Assembly: GCA_023150835.1 (NCBI GenBank)
Contig: JAKLKB010000141.1
Location: 17,419-38,263 of the forward strand
DNA length: 20,845 nt
Reading direction: 5' to 3'
Source of the DNA: Myxococcota bacterium
GTDB lineage: Bacteria; Myxococcota_C; UBA6777
Shown: positions 3,268 to 20,845 of the stretch, one piece after another
Layout: each line of letters begins with the position of its first letter
Numbering within the stretch: the first letter of the stretch is position 1
Position numbers and translations under genes: made by a program
Notes under the pieces: generated by a model
Databases searched by the model: none
Seen by the model: the letters and a program-made list of their open reading frames with translations, nothing else
Told to the model about the DNA's origin: nothing

Positions 3268-4142
3268 AGCCACCACGCCGTTCTATGCTTTTTATGCCGG
3301 GAGACAGCTTGCGCAAGATCGCCAAAGCCGCCTCTCTTGCGGCAGATTGTATCGTCATGGATCTCGAAGATGGCGTTGCGTTGAACCAAAAAGACGAAGC
3401 ACGCCAAACCATCGGACGCGCCTTCCAAGAAGTAGACTTTGGCCGCCGCGAAAAATTGATCCGCATCAACCCCCTCCCCTCGGGCATGGCCTACGAAGAT
3501 ATCCACACCACCGTCCGCCACCAACCCGACGGTTATGTCGTCCCCAAAGTCGAATCTCCCGAGCAGATCAAAGAGATCGACGCGATCCTGCGCCAACTCG
3601 AACATCAACACGGCTATCCTGCCCAAAGTATCGGGCTTTATGCCGTGATCGAAAGCGCCTTGGGCGTCTTGCACGTGGGCAAGATCGCTGGCGCAAGCCC
3701 GCGTCTTCGCGCTTTGATGTTTGGTGCAGAAGATCTCGCAGGGGATATCGGTGCAACGCGAACAGACGAAGGATGGGAAGTTTATTATGCCCGAAGTGCG
3801 GTCGTCACAGCCGCCGCCGCATATCGCCTTGATCCGATCGACACCGTACATCCCGATTTCAACGATCCAGAAGGTCTGATCCGAGAATGTAAAAAAGCCC
3901 GTCAGATGGGATACACGGGAAAGATGGCGATCCACCCCAACCAAGTCGACACCATGAACCAAGCCTTCTCCCCAACCCCCCAAGAGATATCTCGCGCACA
4001 ACGCCTTCTCCAAGCCAATGACGAGCAACAAGCCCTTGGCATCGGCGCTTTCGCCTTTGAAGGCAAGATGGTTGATATGCCCATGATCCGACACGCAGAG
4101 CGCATCCTTCAAAGCGCCAAGATCATCGGCTTGCTTGATTGA
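3264..4142 (+). CDS. CitE-like HpcH/HpaI aldolase, malyl/citramalyl-CoA lyase type
   Basis: A 292-aa TIM-barrel lyase of the CitE/malyl-CoA lyase family, which cleaves or forms 3-hydroxyacyl-CoA esters with Mg2+. Visible signatures are RSMLFMPGD (6-14), MDLEDGV (32-38), RINP (67-70), VPKVES (93-98), IESALG (129-134), the metal-binding GAEDLAGDIG (154-163) and KMAIHPNQV near the C-terminus. Length fits stand-alone CitE-like lyases, and no citrate lyase CitD or CitF partner is present. The overlap with the MaoC-like gene argues for one pathway: hydration of an enoyl-CoA, then cleavage of the hydroxyacyl-CoA to acetyl-CoA or propionyl-CoA plus glyoxylate or pyruvate. The exact substrate (L-malyl-, methylmalyl- or citramalyl-CoA) cannot be read from the sequence. 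Confidence 0.9.
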   Translation: MKPPRRSMLFMPGDSLRKIAKAASLAADCIVMDLEDGVALNQKDEARQTIGRAFQEVDFGRREKLIRINPLPSGMAYEDIHTTVRHQPDGYVVPKVESPEQIKEIDAILRQLEHQHGYPAQSIGLYAVIESALGVLHVGKIAGASPRLRALMFGAEDLAGDIGATRTDEGWEVYYARSAVVTAAAAYRLDPIDTVHPDFNDPEGLIRECKKARQMGYTGKMAIHPNQVDTMNQAFSPTPQEISRAQRLLQANDEQQALGIGAFAFEGKMVDMPMIRHAERILQSAKIIGLLD

Positions 4143-4207
4143 TTCGCAGTTTACAAGGCTCGGATACACGGCTTTTTGCAAGATCGCCACACGTAGGAGT
4201 TTTTTTG

Positions 4208-7200
4208 ATGCAATCGACTTCTTTTGATCGTAGAACCTACACGAAGGATGCGAAGACCAGCCGATGGATGGCGGCCTTTTTGATCGGCATTTGGCTCAGT
4301 GGCCTGTTCTCTCAACACGCGGATGCTCAACCCGCGTCTCGTCCTGCTTCTCGCCCCGCTGCTTCGGCCAAAAAACCGCCACCTTTGCCGTCTTCGACGA
4401 TCCGCTTTCAAACCAACGAAGGCACATGGATGAATCTCGACCTCTCCCCAGACGGCAAGATCCTTGTGTTTAACTTGTTGGGCGATCTCTATACCCTCCC
4501 TGTATCGGGCGGAATCGCCACGCGCCTTACCCAAGGCCCTGCTTATGATGTCCAACCCCGCTTCTCTCCAGACGGAAAACACATCCTCTTTACGAGTGAT
4601 CGTGGCGGATGCGACAATACTTGGATCATGGATCGTGACGGCAGACATCCCCGCCCGCTGACTCAACACAAATACGTCACCGCCAACTCTCCCGTCTTTT
4701 CGCCCGATGGTCGGTACTTTGTGAATCGTCGAAGGATCACCGATCGTAGCAGTATCGGAACCGTCGAGATCTGGCTTCATCATACCCTCGGTGGAGCGGG
4801 CATCCAACTCACCAAAGGCAGCCAGATCGGAGATGGCAACGATCCTGCTTTTTCCGCCGACGGCAAACACCTTTACTTCGCAAGCCGCCCTCGCTTTGTG
4901 TACGATCGCAATATCCACCACGGCATCTGGAAGATCGAACGCCTTGATCTCAGCACACACAAACGCATCACCATCACACAAAATGCCGCTCGACCCACCC
5001 CCTCACCCGATGGAAGGTGGCTGGCTTTTGTCCGGCGTGTCGGTGCAAAAACAGCCCTGATGTTGCACGATCTACACGACGGCAGCGAGCGTATGCTCGT
5101 CGATCATCTCGACAAAGATCTCCAAGAAAACTTCGCCGCAGGCGGCACCTACCCCTCCTTTGCATGGACTTCCGACGCCAAACACCTGTATTATACGGCC
5201 CAAGGCGGTTTTTGGCGCAAGTCCCTCGACCCAGCACCCGCCCTACGCATCCCCTTCACCGCCGAGATCGAACAACAAGTCACCCACGCCCTACGCTTTT
5301 CTTATAAACTTCCCCGCAAAAGCTTTCTCGCAAAGATGCTGCGTTGGGTACGACTCTCTCCAAATGCCGATCGTGTCTTGTTCGGTGCTGTCGGTCGGAT
5401 CTGGCAAGCCCCTTGGCCCCAAGCTCAACCCATCACCCCGATCACTCCTGCCCACATCCTCGCCTATTCTCCGACGTTTTCCCATGACGGAAACGCCCTT
5501 GCTTACGTCACTTGGGACGACAAGACCAAAGGGCAGATTTGGCTCCAAGAGCGCCTTGCCAACGGAAGCTACAGCCCCCCCCAACGCCTCACACGCCTCC
5601 CTGCTCAATACGCCAACCCGACCTTTTCCCACGACGGACAATCCATTGCATTCCTCAAAACCAGCGGCGCAAGCGCCCGTGGACTCAGCCTCAGCAACGA
5701 ACCTTGGTTAGAGATATCGCTACTTCATCGCAAAACCCAACAGATCCGCCATGTCCTTTATCTCGACAATCGCGGCGCGATCTCGCGGATGCCGCAGCCA
5801 CAGTTCTCACAAGATGACAAACGCCTGTATTTTACGCGTGTTGCGTACACAAAACACAAACGATCTTTGCTGTTGGTCTCCACAAGGCTCGATGGTTCGG
5901 ATGAAAAACAACACATCCGTATCTACGGCGGCGAAGAGATGAGCGTCTCGCCCGATGAACGCTGGCTGCTGTTCCGTCACTTGCATCATATCTTCCTCAC
6001 ACCCCTTCCCATCGGACAAAGCAACGCCGTTGTTCTCGGTATCAACGACAATCAAACCAATGCAACCGTCCTTCCGACGCTTCAGCTTTCTAAAGATGGC
6101 GGCAGCTATCCCGCATGGACACGCGACGGGCGCATGACGTGGAGCCTCGGCCCCAACCTCTACTCCATGCCTTTGCAAGAAGCCATCTCCCTTCTACAAC
6201 GACGGTTGGCCGCCAACGGAAACGGCGATGGCAAGGGAAAAACCAAACAAGACACTTCCTCACTTCAACCCAAGCCGCAGCGCCATCCCCTCCGTCTCCT
6301 CCTGCCTATCGCACAACCCACACCAACACTCGCCTTCACCAACCTCCGCATCCTGACCATGGGTCCACAAGGCATCCTTCCCAACGGCACGATCCTCACT
6401 CAAGGCGATCAGATCCTTGCGGTGGGACCGACATCTTCGATCTCCATCCCCCCAGATGCCCGTATCATCGACATGAAAGGGCAGACCGCCACCCCCGGCT
6501 TCGTCGATACACACGCCCATCTCCATTACAACGCCCTTGATATCCACCCCCAAAAGATCTCTGAGTACTACGCCAATCTTTCTTATGGCGTGACCACAGC
6601 ACACGATCCTTCCGCAAGTACCGAACTGGTCTTCTCTCTTGCCGAGCGCGTCCGCGCAGGGATGACCGTCGGGCCGCGCATCTTCTCCACAGGCTTCATC
6701 CTCTACGGGGCCGAGATCCAACAAAAAGCCGTGATCCGCAGCCTTGAAGACGCCCGACAGCACATCCGACGCCTTAAAGCCCTTGGCGCGCTCTCCGTCA
6801 AAAGCTATATGCAGCCCGCCCGACAGCAACGCCAATGGGTGATCCGCGCCGCTCACGAAGAAAAGATCCTCGTCTTCCCCGAAGGTGGCGGACATCTCGA
6901 AATGAACCTCGGCATGATCCTCGACGGACACACCGGCATCGAACACGCTCTCCCCGTCGTTCCGCTCTATCGCGACGTCGTACAACTTTTCGCACGCAGC
7001 CAAACAGGTTACACCCCCACGCTTCTTGTCGCCTACGGCGGTATCTCTGGTGAAAACTACTTCTACCAACATCAATCCGTCTGGAACGATCCACGCATGA
7101 AACGCTTCTTTCCTCCCCGACTCCTCGACGCCATCGGACGCAGGCGCCCCGTCCTTGTCATGGATCAACAATGGCATCACGATCGTGTCGCAGCTTCCGC

Positions 7201-7561
7201 ACGAAAGATCACACAAGCAGGTGGCTTGGTCCTCCTTGGCGCTCACGGACAACTCCAAGGACTCGGTTATCACTGGGAAATGAAAGCACTCGCCCAAGGC
7301 GGCTACACCCCCCTCCAAGTCCTGCGCGCCGCCACCCTACACGGTGCCCAATACATCGGGCTCCAACACGATATCGGCTCCATCCAAGTCGGCAAACGCG
7401 CCGATATCCTCTTCTTCCCCAAGGACCCTTCCCTCACCCTCGATCACCTTTCCTCCCTCCAATTCGTCCTCTCCCACGGCAAGCTCTACCACGCCCCCGA
7501 TATGGCACAGATCCAACCCACCAAACGCCCACCCCCCCGCTTCCATTGGCACACCCGATAG
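4208..7561 (+). CDS. exported TolB-propeller amidohydrolase
   Basis: A 1117-aa two-part protein. ATG at 4208 is chosen because TAGGAG lies 7 nt upstream and it gives a Sec signal peptide: positive n-region, hydrophobic MAAFLIGIWLSGLF, likely cleavage after HADA. A Pro/Ala/Ser linker follows. Residues to about 690 contain repeated PD40/TolB-type blades, such as LDLSPDGKILVFN, RFSPDGKHILFTSDRGG and PVFSPDGRYF. The C-terminal part is a metal-dependent amidohydrolase: ATPGFVDTHAHLH with His769 and His771, VKSY with candidate bridging Lys865, GGGHLE (His896), GIEH (His913) and the closing GSIQVGKRADILFF. Proteins of this architecture are widespread, mostly uncharacterised and predicted to act in the periplasm or outside the cell. 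Substrate is unknown. The gene starts 65 bp after the CitE-like gene and may share its transcript. Confidence 0.88.
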   Translation: MQSTSFDRRTYTKDAKTSRWMAAFLIGIWLSGLFSQHADAQPASRPASRPAASAKKPPPLPSSTIRFQTNEGTWMNLDLSPDGKILVFNLLGDLYTLPVSGGIATRLTQGPAYDVQPRFSPDGKHILFTSDRGGCDNTWIMDRDGRHPRPLTQHKYVTANSPVFSPDGRYFVNRRRITDRSSIGTVEIWLHHTLGGAGIQLTKGSQIGDGNDPAFSADGKHLYFASRPRFVYDRNIHHGIWKIERLDLSTHKRITITQNAARPTPSPDGRWLAFVRRVGAKTALMLHDLHDGSERMLVDHLDKDLQENFAAGGTYPSFAWTSDAKHLYYTAQGGFWRKSLDPAPALRIPFTAEIEQQVTHALRFSYKLPRKSFLAKMLRWVRLSPNADRVLFGAVGRIWQAPWPQAQPITPITPAHILAYSPTFSHDGNALAYVTWDDKTKGQIWLQERLANGSYSPPQRLTRLPAQYANPTFSHDGQSIAFLKTSGASARGLSLSNEPWLEISLLHRKTQQIRHVLYLDNRGAISRMPQPQFSQDDKRLYFTRVAYTKHKRSLLLVSTRLDGSDEKQHIRIYGGEEMSVSPDERWLLFRHLHHIFLTPLPIGQSNAVVLGINDNQTNATVLPTLQLSKDGGSYPAWTRDGRMTWSLGPNLYSMPLQEAISLLQRRLAANGNGDGKGKTKQDTSSLQPKPQRHPLRLLLPIAQPTPTLAFTNLRILTMGPQGILPNGTILTQGDQILAVGPTSSISIPPDARIIDMKGQTATPGFVDTHAHLHYNALDIHPQKISEYYANLSYGVTTAHDPSASTELVFSLAERVRAGMTVGPRIFSTGFILYGAEIQQKAVIRSLEDARQHIRRLKALGALSVKSYMQPARQQRQWVIRAAHEEKILVFPEGGGHLEMNLGMILDGHTGIEHALPVVPLYRDVVQLFARSQTGYTPTLLVAYGGISGENYFYQHQSVWNDPRMKRFFPPRLLDAIGRRRPVLVMDQQWHHDRVAASARKITQAGGLVLLGAHGQLQGLGYHWEMKALAQGGYTPLQVLRAATLHGAQYIGLQHDIGSIQVGKRADILFFPKDPSLTLDHLSSLQFVLSHGKLYHAPDMAQIQPTKRPPPRFHWHTR

Positions 7562-7629
7562 CCCACACACCCTACGCCCACACACCCTACGCCCACACAC
7601 CCTACGCCCACACACCCTACGCCCACACA
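7562..7629. repeat. 15-bp minisatellite, about 4.5 copies
   Basis: The unit CCCACACACCCTACG is repeated perfectly four times (7562-7621) plus 8 bases, beginning directly after the amidohydrolase stop codon. G is almost absent on this strand, which adds to the C-rich bias left of the origin. Confidence 0.97.
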
Positions 7630-8206: not shown

Positions 8207-8274
8207 CAGATCCCCCCACCCGTCTTCCGCTCTGATGCCCTCTCAAAAAAGTTATCCACAGAAAAAATCAATAT

Positions 8275-8463
8275 AAAACAAATAGATACAGAGTTATCCA
8301 CAGAGTTATCCACAGAGTTATCCACAGCTAAACAAATAGACAGACCATCGGAACCTCAAAAAGCACATATCCACAGAGATATCCACAGAGAAAGCTAAAA
8401 CAAAACAAATAGATACAGAGTTATCCACAGAGTTATCCACAGAGTTATCCACAGCTAAACAAA
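8275..8463 (+). repeat. perfect 62-bp direct repeat carrying three DnaA boxes each
   Basis: 8275-8336 and 8402-8463 are identical. Each begins AAAACAAATAGATACAGAG, carries three TTATCCACA boxes spaced 12 bp apart, and ends AGCTAAACAAA. Two ATATCCACA boxes 12 bp apart lie between the copies. The duplication shows how the left array was expanded. Confidence 0.95.
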
Positions 8464-8639
8464 CGCTTCGTAAGACGATCTTGCGAGATCACGCAAAAAG
8501 ATCAGTTTTCCACAAAGAAAAAAGAGACAAAACAAAGCCTTGCCGAGTTATCCACAGAGTTATCCACAGCCCTTTGGCCCGATCGCGAGGTGAAAGGCAA
8601 AAAGAACACAAAAGACTATACAAAAAAGCAGTTCACTAA

Positions 8640-8850
8640 GACTAAAACGAAAAACTTAACAGATTTTCACGTTCAAAATGAAAAAGTTGACACATAATAA
8701 TGAAAGAAAACAGATACATGCATTTTCGTGCATAAAGCACGTTTCAGGCACGTTGCAAATATGTTTCATTTTGTTTCAAATTTTGGTTGCAAATATGAAA
8801 TTGCTTATCAAGAACAAATAAATAGGAGGTGAAATTATAGTCTTTTTATG
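8640..8850. other. AT-rich core between DnaA-box arrays, candidate unwinding element
   Basis: This stretch is clearly AT-rich and free of DnaA boxes. It contains the 12-mer GTTGCAAATATG twice (8752-8763 and 8786-8797), the hairpin CGTGC-ATAAA-GCACG (8727-8741) and runs of TTTCAAA/TTTCATT. Its position between two DnaA-box arrays suggests the DNA unwinding element. AGGAGG at 8824 is not followed by a credible gene. Confidence 0.55.
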
Positions 8851-9133
8851 TGTGGATAACTCGGCCAAAATTGTGGATAACTCGGCCAAAATTGTGGATA
8901 TCTCTGTGGATATCTTTGTGGATTATTCAGTCCTATGCAAAAAGCTGCATAGAGTTATCCACAGGGTTTGGGAGTTATCCACAGATATCCACAGAGTTAT
9001 CCACAGAGTTATCCACAGGGTGTCCTGAATGAAATCAAGGAGTTAATTGAGTTATCCACAGAAAAACGGCTCATCTGATACGGATACGGTTGACACACAA
9101 GTTTTAAATTTTGTGTTTTATTCAGCAGCCGAA

Positions 9134-9173
9134 ACGCGCATAGCGCACGTATACATGCACGCGCGTACGCACA
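9134..9173. other. alternating purine/pyrimidine tract, Z-DNA-prone
   Basis: Positions 9143-9173 are 31 consecutive alternating purine/pyrimidine bases rich in CG, CA and TA steps. They are extended leftward by ACGCGCATA (9134-9142) with a single break. Such tracts favour left-handed DNA under negative supercoiling. It lies about 75 bp from the last DnaA box. Confidence 0.75.
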
Positions 9174-9555
9174 GCGCCAGCCCAACTTAGGCACTGTTCG
9201 TTTGTTTCCTGTTTTTTTGTATCGTTTTTGTGTCTACGCGTACACGAGAGAGTGACCTTGGAGGTGAGTTGTTTTGCAATGCGTTTTCTTTGCGTTTGGA
9301 GGCGATTTTGAGGTATCGCGAAGGGTAGGTATCGTTTTTTCTTTTAAGAGTGATTCTCGATGCCTTTGCGTGCGTTTTTTGAGGATGTGATTTTTTGCAA
9401 AAAATTTTTGTATCGAAAAGGCGTCAAGGCGACCGAAAGGGGTGGTTTGTGTAGGGCGGGAAGGTGTGGGAAGCGAAGATGTAGTGAGTAAAAAAGACGT
9501 ACTTCATTGTAAGACAAGTCTGAGGAAGGATCACCAAAGAAAGCGCAGATGGGCT
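9174..9555. other. T/G-rich intergenic region without a convincing gene
   Basis: No gene could be supported. A minus-strand open frame across 9344-9745 encodes a low-complexity protein whose N-terminal half is a translation of the 19-bp minisatellite. A good GGAGGTGAG at about 9260 is followed only by a 10-codon frame. Confidence 0.45.
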
Positions 9556-9669
9556 GCGATGTGGCGGCTGGTTTGCGATGTAGCGGTGGGGTTGCGATGT
9601 AGCGGTGGGGTTGCGGTGTAGCGGTGGGGTTGCGATGTAGCGGTGGGGTTGCGATGTAGCGGTGGGATT
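9556..9669. repeat. 19-bp minisatellite, six units
   Basis: Six adjacent 19-bp units with consensus GCGATGTAGCGGTGGGGTT start at 9556, 9575, 9594, 9613, 9632 and 9651. The first unit is the most diverged and the inner ones are nearly identical. The plus strand is strongly G-rich, the mirror image of the C-rich minisatellite on the other side of the origin. Confidence 0.97.
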
Positions 9670-9745
9670 GTTGATATCTCCCCATGTTCGTGCTGTATCG
9701 AGAGGTTGTGTTGTTGGTTTGAGAGGCGACTGTTTGTCCCGTCAA

Positions 9746-10110: not shown

Positions 10111-10869
10111 TCAGGATTTGGTGGGGGCAACAGGGGAGGGGATGGGTTCTTCGCGGAGCTTTTTTTGGCGGGTGAGGACTTCGGTGTTGGTGATAGCGCC
10201 GAGGATGAGGGTGCGTTCTTTGGCGGTGAGGTTGGATTCTTGGAATTCGACGAGAAAGCTGCGCATACCGAGGAGTTTACGGACATCGAGGAGATTTTTG
10301 CGCATACGAGCGACGGGTTTTCCGTTGCGTTGGACGGTATAGCGAGAGCCGATAAAGCCGCGTTTGATATCGCCCCAACGTTTGCTTTGATCGTCCCAGA
10401 GGATGTATTTGCGGTCTGCCCAAAAGAGCGATTGACGGGCTTGTCCGACGGTATCTCCCTTGGCGTCTTGGATGGTGAAGAGCGGTTGGAAAAGCGCCCA
10501 GCCTTTGTGGGAAGCGAGGACGAGTTTGTTGTCGCGATCCCAAAGCTCGATCTTGGTGGGGCTGCGTGTGGCGAGAAAACTGTGAAAGCGCATCAGAGCC
10601 ATCAAGAGGCCAAACAAGGCGAGTCCGATTCCGAAGTAGCGGATATTTCCGCTTTGTTTGACGGCCAGATAGATACCGCCGGAAAGCAGGGAAAGTTCCA
10701 ACAAGACGCCGAAAAACCAAAGTACGGGATACGACCATGCTGGGTGAAAGATCAGCGTGCCGATGGCTTTGTTGGCGTCGTCGATCACGTTGAAGCGTGT
10801 GGTAAGGCGTGGGAGGATACGGAAACGGGCTTGGATGATCAGGCGATCAGATTGTAATAACTCGTGCAT
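10111..10869 (-). CDS. membrane protein, probable scramblase/LURP-one (tubby-like) family
   Basis: A 252-aa protein. ATG at 10867-10869 has AGGAG 7 nt upstream, so longer frames reaching into mazG are rejected. Residues 5-35 look like the opening strands of a LURP-one/phospholipid-scramblase fold (IIQARFRILPRLTTRFNVID). A two-helix membrane hairpin follows (about 48-70 and 77-97). A beta-rich C-terminal part (105-232) ends in LTAKERTLILGAI, which resembles the closing helix of scramblase-like proteins. The fold assignment is from pattern memory, not a search. Role unknown; possibly lipid- or membrane-associated. It lies 139 bp downstream of mazG on the same strand. Confidence 0.7.
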   Translation of the reverse strand: MHELLQSDRLIIQARFRILPRLTTRFNVIDDANKAIGTLIFHPAWSYPVLWFFGVLLELSLLSGGIYLAVKQSGNIRYFGIGLALFGLLMALMRFHSFLATRSPTKIELWDRDNKLVLASHKGWALFQPLFTIQDAKGDTVGQARQSLFWADRKYILWDDQSKRWGDIKRGFIGSRYTVQRNGKPVARMRKNLLDVRKLLGMRSFLVEFQESNLTAKERTLILGAITNTEVLTRQKKLREEPIPSPVAPTKS

Positions 10870-11008: not shown

Positions 11009-11905
11009 TTAAGATTTGACGGAAGCGAGGGATTTTTTTGCTTCTTTCCAAAGGGCTTCGAGTCGGGTTTGGTCGGTGTCGTGGGGAGTTTTGCCTTCGC
11101 GGTGGAGTTGTGCTTCGATGTAGTGGAAGCGTTGGGTAAAGCGTTGGCAAGTTTCATGGAGAGCGTTTTCGCTATCGAGATGAAGTTGTCGACTGAGTTG
11201 GGCGACAGAAAACAACAAGTCACCGATCTCGGAAGCGCAAGCTTTTGGGTCGTGGGTTTGCATGGCTTCTTTTAACTCGTCGATCTCTTCGTGGATCTTG
11301 TCCCAGATCGCGTCGGTGGTGGGCCAATCAAAGTTGACTTGCGCGACTTTTTCACCGATGCGTTGGGCGCGGTGGAGCGAGGGCAAAAGGCGTGGTATCC
11401 CTTCCAACACAGAGGGCGGTGGTTCGGTGCTTTTCGCGGTTTGCGTTTCGTGGGCCTTGCGTCGCGCCCAGAGGCTGGGAACATCCGTTGAAGCGTGGAC
11501 GGTGTCATCGCCAAAGACATGAGGGTGGCGGTGTTCCATCTTTTGAAGGACGCGTTGAAGGATGCTGCTAAGGTCAAAGAGTTGTTGTTGCTCGCAGAGA
11601 TCGGCAAAAAAGCAAAGTAGAAAAAACAGGTCGCCGAGTTCTTTTTGAAAAGCGTGTGGATCGTGATGGCGTTGTTGTGCAGCTTCGATGGCTTCGAGTG
11701 CTTCTTCGCGCAGAAAGGGCAACATACTTTCGATGGTTTGCGCACGATCCCACGGACAACCTTGGGGGCTGCGTAGGATCTTTACGAGCGAGAGAAGTTG
11801 AGCGAATCTGTAAAGGCTGGAGGCGACCCTTCCTGTGAGCCAAGGAACCCGAAGGCGAAACCGAAGCCAAAGCCGAGAGAGACGAAGACGAAGTGGTATA
11901 CTCAT
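11009..11905 (-). CDS. mazG: nucleoside triphosphate pyrophosphohydrolase MazG
   Basis: MazG hydrolyses (d)NTPs to NMP and pyrophosphate, cleaning the nucleotide pool and, in E. coli, lowering ppGpp. The product is 298 aa with the duplicated all-alpha MazG fold. The N-terminal domain has LRSPQGCPWDRAQT (44-57), the EExxE motif REEALEAIEA (67-76) and KELGDLFF (88-95). The C-terminal domain has FDWP, HEEIDELKEA and EIGDLLFSVAQL. ATG at 11903-11905 is chosen because AAGGAG lies 5 nt upstream. The first 30 residues are unusually Arg-rich (SIPLRLRLSRLWLRFRLR) and precede the usual family start. The gene is divergent from the TPR protein gene. Confidence 0.93.
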   Translation of the reverse strand: MSIPLRLRLSRLWLRFRLRVPWLTGRVASSLYRFAQLLSLVKILRSPQGCPWDRAQTIESMLPFLREEALEAIEAAQQRHHDPHAFQKELGDLFFLLCFFADLCEQQQLFDLSSILQRVLQKMEHRHPHVFGDDTVHASTDVPSLWARRKAHETQTAKSTEPPPSVLEGIPRLLPSLHRAQRIGEKVAQVNFDWPTTDAIWDKIHEEIDELKEAMQTHDPKACASEIGDLLFSVAQLSRQLHLDSENALHETCQRFTQRFHYIEAQLHREGKTPHDTDQTRLEALWKEAKKSLASVKS

Positions 11906-17410: not shown

Positions 17411-18085
17411 TCACACGAGATCGTTTCGTCCGATACGATACAGCGTAAAGTGTTCGCCTGAGGGGAGTTTGTAGGGGATCGTGCTGAGCAAGCGCAATGT
17501 GTCGGGTAGTTCGGGCTTTGTGTGCGGCACTCCCCAATAAAGGATCTGTCCATCGGGTTCGAGGTAAGGGTGTAAAAAGGGCAAAAGCTCTGTGGGAGCG
17601 ACGGCGCGAAAGGTGATGCGCGCAAAAGGAATTGGGAGGGCTTCGGCCTGTGGGTTTCCGACAAAGCGCACTGCACGGACATCAAGACGGGAAAGCTTAC
17701 ATTGGAGGCGGACTTGCTGGAGGAAAGCAGCGCGACGCTGGTGTGTTTCGAGCGCTGTCCATGAGAGATGAGGCAAGGCGATCGCAAGAGGGATGACGGG
17801 GAATCCGGCTCCTGCGCCGATATCGAGGATCTGCTGGTGAGGAAAAAGATCTGTGAAGCAGCCGATGGCGATCAGCGAGTCGGTCAGGTGACGTTGGGCG
17901 AGTTCGGGGATATCGTCTTTTCCTGTGAGTCGGATGGTGCGATTCCATTGTTGGAGGAGGCGCAAGTATCGTTCGAGTTGCTCGGCGAGGGCGCTTTGTT
18001 GGAGTGCGGTTTGTGCGGAAGGTGCGTTGTTGTAGTTTGCGGCGTGTTGGATGGCTTGTTCGATCCATTGTCGTTCTGAAGGCAT
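17411..18085 (-). CDS. rsmG: 16S rRNA (guanine527-N7)-methyltransferase RsmG
   Basis: A 224-aa SAM-dependent methyltransferase (GidB) that makes m7G527 in 16S rRNA; loss gives low-level streptomycin resistance in other bacteria. Visible are QQWNRTIRLTG (45-55), the conserved RHLTDSL (65-71), the SAM-binding loop DIGAGAGFPVIPLAI (88-102) and the acidic ALETHQRRAAFL (111-122). ATG at 18083-18085 has no clear Shine-Dalgarno. It lies 61 bp after the kinase gene on the same strand, so the two are probably one transcript. In many bacteria this gene sits at oriC beside gidA and parAB; here it is about 9 kb away without them. Confidence 0.93.
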   Translation of the reverse strand: MPSERQWIEQAIQHAANYNNAPSAQTALQQSALAEQLERYLRLLQQWNRTIRLTGKDDIPELAQRHLTDSLIAIGCFTDLFPHQQILDIGAGAGFPVIPLAIALPHLSWTALETHQRRAAFLQQVRLQCKLSRLDVRAVRFVGNPQAEALPIPFARITFRAVAPTELLPFLHPYLEPDGQILYWGVPHTKPELPDTLRLLSTIPYKLPSGEHFTLYRIGRNDLV

Positions 18086-20763: not shown

Positions 20764-20845
20764 TAACTGGAGAGTTTGATCCTGGCTCAGAACGAACGTT
20801 GGCGGCGTGCTTAACACATGCAAGTCGAGCGCGAATCCTTGCTTC
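20764..20845 (+). rRNA. 16S ribosomal RNA, 5' end only
   Basis: The universal 5' sequence AGAGTTTGATCCTGGCTCAG (E. coli positions 8-27) starts at 20771, followed by GAACGAACGTTGGCGGCGTG and CTTAACACATGCAAGTCGAG. The mature end is placed by counting back to E. coli position 1. The gene continues beyond the window and points away from the putative origin, co-directional with replication. Confidence 0.97.

Follow-up and report, generated by a model that had tools for sequence, protein, structure and literature searches.

A very probable chromosomal replication origin with an amplified DnaA-box array, located away from dnaA, in an uncultured Myxococcota-assigned lineage

Bacterial replication origins that have been studied contain 5–19 DnaA boxes (PMC4285127). 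The origin (oriC) of Streptomyces coelicolor has 19 boxes arranged in two clusters with a short spacer, is nearly 1 kb long and forms a hairpin-like complex (PMC5448010). In the bipartite origins of Bacillus subtilis and Helicobacter pylori, a gene, most often dnaA, stands between the two clusters (PMC4285127). The basal unwinding system (BUS), of which the B. subtilis origin is an example, is recognized by a DnaA box with at least three DnaA trios (3'-NAN-5') no more than 16 bp away, and predicted trio elements are present in ~85% of surveyed origins (PMC8287927). Our literature search on delta-proteobacterial origins and their linkage to dnaA returned nothing. Here we analyse a stretch of 20,845 nucleotides (hereafter the window; C82:17419–38263, reaching the right end of this 38,263-bp contig) from a Myxococcota-assigned bacterium, with all unprefixed coordinates referring to the window. 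Our analysis suggests that a dense DnaA-box array at positions 8252–9060 is very probably the chromosomal oriC of this bacterium.

The layout of this locus is closest to that of the S. coelicolor oriC, as both consist of two box clusters and a spacer, but 23 boxes are present over 810 bp here as compared to 19 boxes there. Streptomyces boxes read TTGTCCACA (PMC4285127), whereas boxes in the window follow the TTATCCACA consensus, stand in tandem at a 12-bp pitch and belong partly to a 127-bp tandem duplication, and dnaA is not adjacent. An earlier sequence-only reading had proposed a probable oriC with 16 exact and 7 one-mismatch TTATCCACA boxes in this region, and our recount returned the same numbers, orientations and spacing. 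Allowing at most one mismatch, the whole window contains 27 matches, against a mean of 2.6 and a maximum of 7 in 100 dinucleotide shuffles. In the genome (7.56 Mb in 239 contigs), 54 exact boxes are present, of which 16 belong to the array and 38 lie elsewhere, never more than two together. Searches with the exact box and with TTWTCCACAG found no second box cluster in the assembled genome, which is ~93% complete.

The left array (8252–8568) consists of 12 boxes, all on the plus strand (9 exact and 3 with one mismatch), mostly at a 12-bp pitch that leaves a 3-bp gap; the 12-bp repeat within box runs is TTATCCACAGAG. This array is a tandem duplication with a period of 127 bp and 2.5 copies, and boxes recur at exactly this distance (8252/8379/8506, 8294/8421/8548, 8306/8433/8560 and 8318/8445). 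Because of the duplication, the left-array boxes are not independent of each other. With ~10.5 bp per turn, spacings of 42 bp and 127 bp amount to nearly integral numbers of turns, which would place the units of the left array in helical phase. The right array is built back to back, from five minus-strand boxes at 8851–8925 (two exact) followed by six plus-strand boxes at 8955–9060 (five exact), the last of which occupies 9052–9060. The changes of orientation noticed earlier are therefore as described, and the box-free core of about 280 bp between the arrays measures 282 bp (8569–8850). The same reading had called the locus bipartite. This is correct in so far as there are two clusters that DnaA could bridge by looping, as in B. 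subtilis and H. pylori, but it does not hold in the published sense, since the clusters are separated by 282 bp of non-coding DNA and not by a gene. The locus is rather one continuous intergenic origin, as in Streptomyces.

Comparison within the family covered five genomes of three genera, namely the window genome (G000) and G001 to G004; those with public names are metagenome-assembled genomes labelled Myxococcota, Myxococcales or Deltaproteobacteria. All five have box arrays at an equivalent gene position, to the left of the same right-hand neighbour gene. The G004 contig starts just inside the AT-rich element, so that only its further, flanking arrays are visible. The congener G001 retains the left array in the same 127-bp register. 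In the sister genera, G002 and G003 have three to four left plus boxes, an AT-rich core of ~84 bp, five minus boxes and then plus boxes. The minus-then-plus layout of the right array is hence common to G001, G002 and G003. In none of the five genomes is dnaA surrounded by a box cluster.

Outside the family, five of 381 genomes have three boxes at a 12-bp pitch (at most two mismatches). In three of these, G014, G162 and G308 (L071, L072 and L073), a minus-then-plus box module lies beside dnaA with ~10–12 exact boxes per ~200 bp, and in G308 CTACTACTA trios are located just right of the last plus box. These clusters resemble the right array in their back-to-back exact boxes and ~12-bp pitch, but differ in being next to dnaA and in having no separate 12-box left array. 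The design seen in the right half of this origin is therefore widespread. The presence of this module at dnaA-linked loci of unrelated genomes strengthens the oriC assignment and at the same time tempers any claim of uniqueness. The unusual density pointed out by the sequence-only reading thus stands in that the box count exceeds the published 5–19, but not in that similarly dense exact boxes are found at these dnaA-linked loci.

The GC-skew profile, suggested earlier as a check, agrees with the assignment at the scale of the contig. Along the 38-kb contig, the cumulative skew is lowest at 8580–8679, inside the array region, and the skew shifts at the locus from about −0.33 to +0.21. Fourfold-degenerate sites rise on both gene strands, from −0.44 to +0.29 in plus-strand genes and from 0.17 to 0.50 in minus-strand genes. 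G001 behaves likewise, with its minimum at L038:6184. Agreement is weaker in G002, G003 and G004; the contig minimum of G003 lies ~8 kb right of the array, and in G004 the skew stays mostly positive over 127 kb to the right. We considered skew as decisive evidence and rejected it, as equally strong shifts occur on contig C201 that are unrelated to dnaA or boxes and are partly driven by gene strand. The skew therefore supports but does not prove an origin.

The locus thus combines an intergenic box cluster beyond chance, a switch in strand composition and a position conserved in relatives, all of which are expected of an oriC. We assign it as oriC because the site is conserved in the family, it is the only box cluster of the genome, the skew minimum falls in the array and the same module lies beside dnaA in unrelated genomes. 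The origin proposed from the sequence alone is well supported on the same grounds. The DnaA protein of this genome has the motif GGKDHST, which we take to be the canonical box-reading motif. The trio elements of G002 and G003 and the proximity of rsmG and a 16S rRNA gene, described below, also speak for an origin. Several observations weigh against the assignment. The dnaA-dnaN-recF genes are located on contig C201, ~93 kb into its 181 kb, a distance of at least ~99 kb from the array, provided that the assembly is correct; adjacency to dnaA and dnaN, a common but not defining trait of oriC, is thus lacking. The skew was profiled over whole contigs of an incomplete assembly in 239 pieces, and 4 of 284 positions on C201 shift as strongly as the locus does. 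No canonical parS was found in the genome. Finally, neither the core nor the right edge of the array has DnaA trios at the published spacing.

In the mechanism that we propose, DnaA would occupy the closely spaced boxes at their 12-bp pitch and assemble a filament on each array, the all-plus one on the left and the back-to-back one on the right. Growth of the oligomer from the last plus box (9052–9060) would open the duplex just rightward, at ~9061–9140, while the left array would most likely loop onto the right complex and load or time initiation. The box anatomy, the conservation across the family, the uniqueness in the genome, the skew minimum and the trio element in relatives are direct observations, whereas binding by DnaA, looping, firing of the origin and the place where it opens in this genus are inferred.

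There are two candidate unwinding elements beside boxes, one at the right edge (plus strand, 9061–9140) and the other in the core (8741–8850). We lean towards the right edge, with moderate confidence, because the orthologous position in the sister genera holds an element composed of a box, a GC spacer and DnaA trios. In both G002 and G003, a canonical basal unwinding element lies directly right of the last plus box, in the order TTATCCACA, 14 or 15 nt ending in CCC, CTACTACTACTACTATTA (G002) or CTACTAATACTACTA (G003) and then strongly AT-rich DNA. It includes five trios of CTA/ATA type, with a trio score of 23 in G002 and 18 in G003, against a best score of 11 among 76 background boxes. A likeness to BUS origins such as that of B. 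subtilis, with a box, a spacer of 14–15 nt, five trios and AT-rich DNA at the right edge, is shown by these two genomes. In the window's genus, the right-edge sequence is GAAAAACGGCTCATCTGATACGGATACGGTTGACACACAAGTTTTAAATTTTGTGTTTTATTC, canonical trios are absent and there is no run of at least three NTN trios within 16 nt; the sole trio match in the window has a spacer of 22 and a low score. Given the ~85% of surveyed origins with predicted trios, an origin that lacks them is uncommon though not unheard of. The right edge does have a short AT-rich run (9096–9125), and the 25-mer at 9099–9123 ranks with the region's least stable ones. Identity between G000 and G001 is 90% in the left array, 80% in the core, 97.6% in the right array, 100% in the 80 bp right of the array, and 90% and declining beyond.

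Right of the AT-rich element, TAGAAGAAGAAGAG is present in G002 (L039:8841–8901) and TAGTAGTAGTAGGG-like runs in G004 (L041:1–20). These runs resemble trios when the opposite strand is read and give the impression of a mirrored opening element.

It is also possible, though we consider it somewhat less likely than opening at the right edge, that this oriC opens in its AT-rich core (~8741–8850) at GTTKCA iterons next to the minus boxes. The core is non-coding, has 32.6% GC as compared to 54% in the contig, and its duplex stability is low. Five GTTKCA iterons are present on the plus strand between 8741 and 8791 (starts at 8741, 8752, 8763, 8773 and 8786), at a near-helical pitch of 10–13 bp, and might be repeats of a DNA unwinding element or a binding site of another factor. 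They are retained in G001 (L038:6291–6341), where both changes within the motif fall on the degenerate K base. Five iterons per 64 bp are found here and in G001, while any other 64-bp stretch in 218 kb of the genome's own contigs has at most three, a count to be read as a lead and not as a test since the motif was picked after inspection. The loss of right-edge trios in this genus would also fit opening in the core. However, no other segment of the origin is as poorly conserved as the core (79.9% identity between G000 and G001, against 100% at 9061–9140), the core shrinks from 282 bp to ~84 bp in G002 and G003, where the iterons are absent, and the trio element of the sister genera is located at the right edge. 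On the same grounds, the AT-rich middle does not stand as the distinctive element that the sequence-only reading took it for.

The trio motif that commonly opens origins, still present in the sister genera, was apparently lost in this genus. A broader scenario, which we regard as doubtful, is that the opening mechanism of oriC has switched within the family. The sister genera would have kept the right-edge trios, while this genus would have lost them, multiplied its left boxes through the 127-bp duplication, enlarged the spacer and come to open by another signal, either the GTTKCA iterons of the core or the trio-free but fully conserved 80 bp at 9061–9140.

An alternative that we consider very improbable is that the locus is a titration or reset site, similar to datA or DARS, which controls the supply of DnaA while the true origin lies elsewhere. 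The very large number of strong boxes and the distance from dnaA would suit such a site, as would the weak-box arrays around the right-hand neighbour gene in the sister genus g2, which could be titration arrays. Like E. coli datA, the array is a DnaA-box cluster outside the dnaA locus. However, a datA-type cluster is additional to a separate oriC, whereas the assembled genome has no cluster besides the one in the window, which lies at the skew minimum of its contig; neither elsewhere in this genome nor around dnaA in the five family genomes is there a cluster to act as origin instead. In addition, the orthologous loci hold canonical trio elements, and dnaA-linked loci of unrelated genomes have a module of the same minus-then-plus kind. 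Least probable of all is that the origin belongs to a plasmid, a chromid or an integrated element and not to the main chromosome. The assembly is fragmented, with the locus on a 38-kb contig and dnaA on a different one, but the contig of the locus contains hisS, tRNA-His, phoH, ybeY, rsmG and 16S rRNA genes in the same order as in relatives, and no other candidate for a main-chromosome origin was found.

The extra arrays in G002 and G004 consist mostly of weaker TTTTCCACA boxes that flank the right-hand neighbour gene on both sides in opposite orientation (L039:9817–10162 and 11667–11887; L041:624–998 and 2349–2663).

The genes of the contig are chromosomal, and their order around the locus is the same in the relatives. 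To the left are tRNA-His, hisS, a MaoC protein, a CitE-like protein and, as the immediate neighbour, a protein with a WD40-like beta propeller and an amidohydrolase domain (4139–7561, plus strand). The right-hand neighbour (10111–10857, minus strand) encodes a family-conserved protein of ~248 aa with no Pfam match; it always adjoins the origin in the family and, in a scan of our genome collection, was found in this family only. Further right are mazG, TPR and DUF4388 proteins, phoH, a ybeY-like and a Ser/Thr-kinase-like open reading frame (both identified by reading the sequence alone), rsmG and the 16S rRNA gene. The rsmG (gidB) gene, which is often found near oriC, is located at 17411–18085 on the minus strand (PF02527, E 1e-30); G001, G002 and G004 likewise have it on their origin contigs. 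The 5' end of the 16S rRNA gene (20764–20845, plus strand) is transcribed away from the origin, and the contig terminates inside this gene, which is a usual break point of short-read assemblies. Both rsmG and the 16S rRNA gene lie within 12 kb of the array. Short tandem repeats flank the origin region, a 15-bp unit repeated 4.6 times directly after the amidohydrolase gene (7561–7629) and a 19-bp unit repeated 6.3 times on the right side (9551–9670). Scans for promoters and terminators in the intergenic region gave sites no more numerous than in shuffles, and Rfam gave no RNA match in the origin region.

Clustering of GATC, of the kind related to Dam/SeqA-like control, was rejected for the window's own origin, which has 17 GATC sites against 30 expected. 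The densest GATC cluster of the contig adjoins the origin in G002, G003 and G004, with 18, 26 and 22 sites per 500 bp, respectively (L039:8681–9180, L040:8401–8900 and L041:1–500). These clusters look as if they served such control, and the window's own genus is without one. Proteins of the Dam-type family PF02086 (MethyltransfD12) are present in all five family genomes.

What is notable about this origin is its distance from dnaA, its amplified left array and its trio-free edge in this genus. The assignment places a very probable origin in an uncultured lineage assigned to Myxococcota, one in which looking beside dnaA would miss oriC. The number of boxes, above the 5–19 of studied origins, bears on how far origins depend on high-affinity boxes. 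Same-locus origins with and without DnaA trios form a natural comparison set within the family, so that the trio element as the ancestral mode of opening becomes a claim that could be tested using related DnaA proteins and native DNA.
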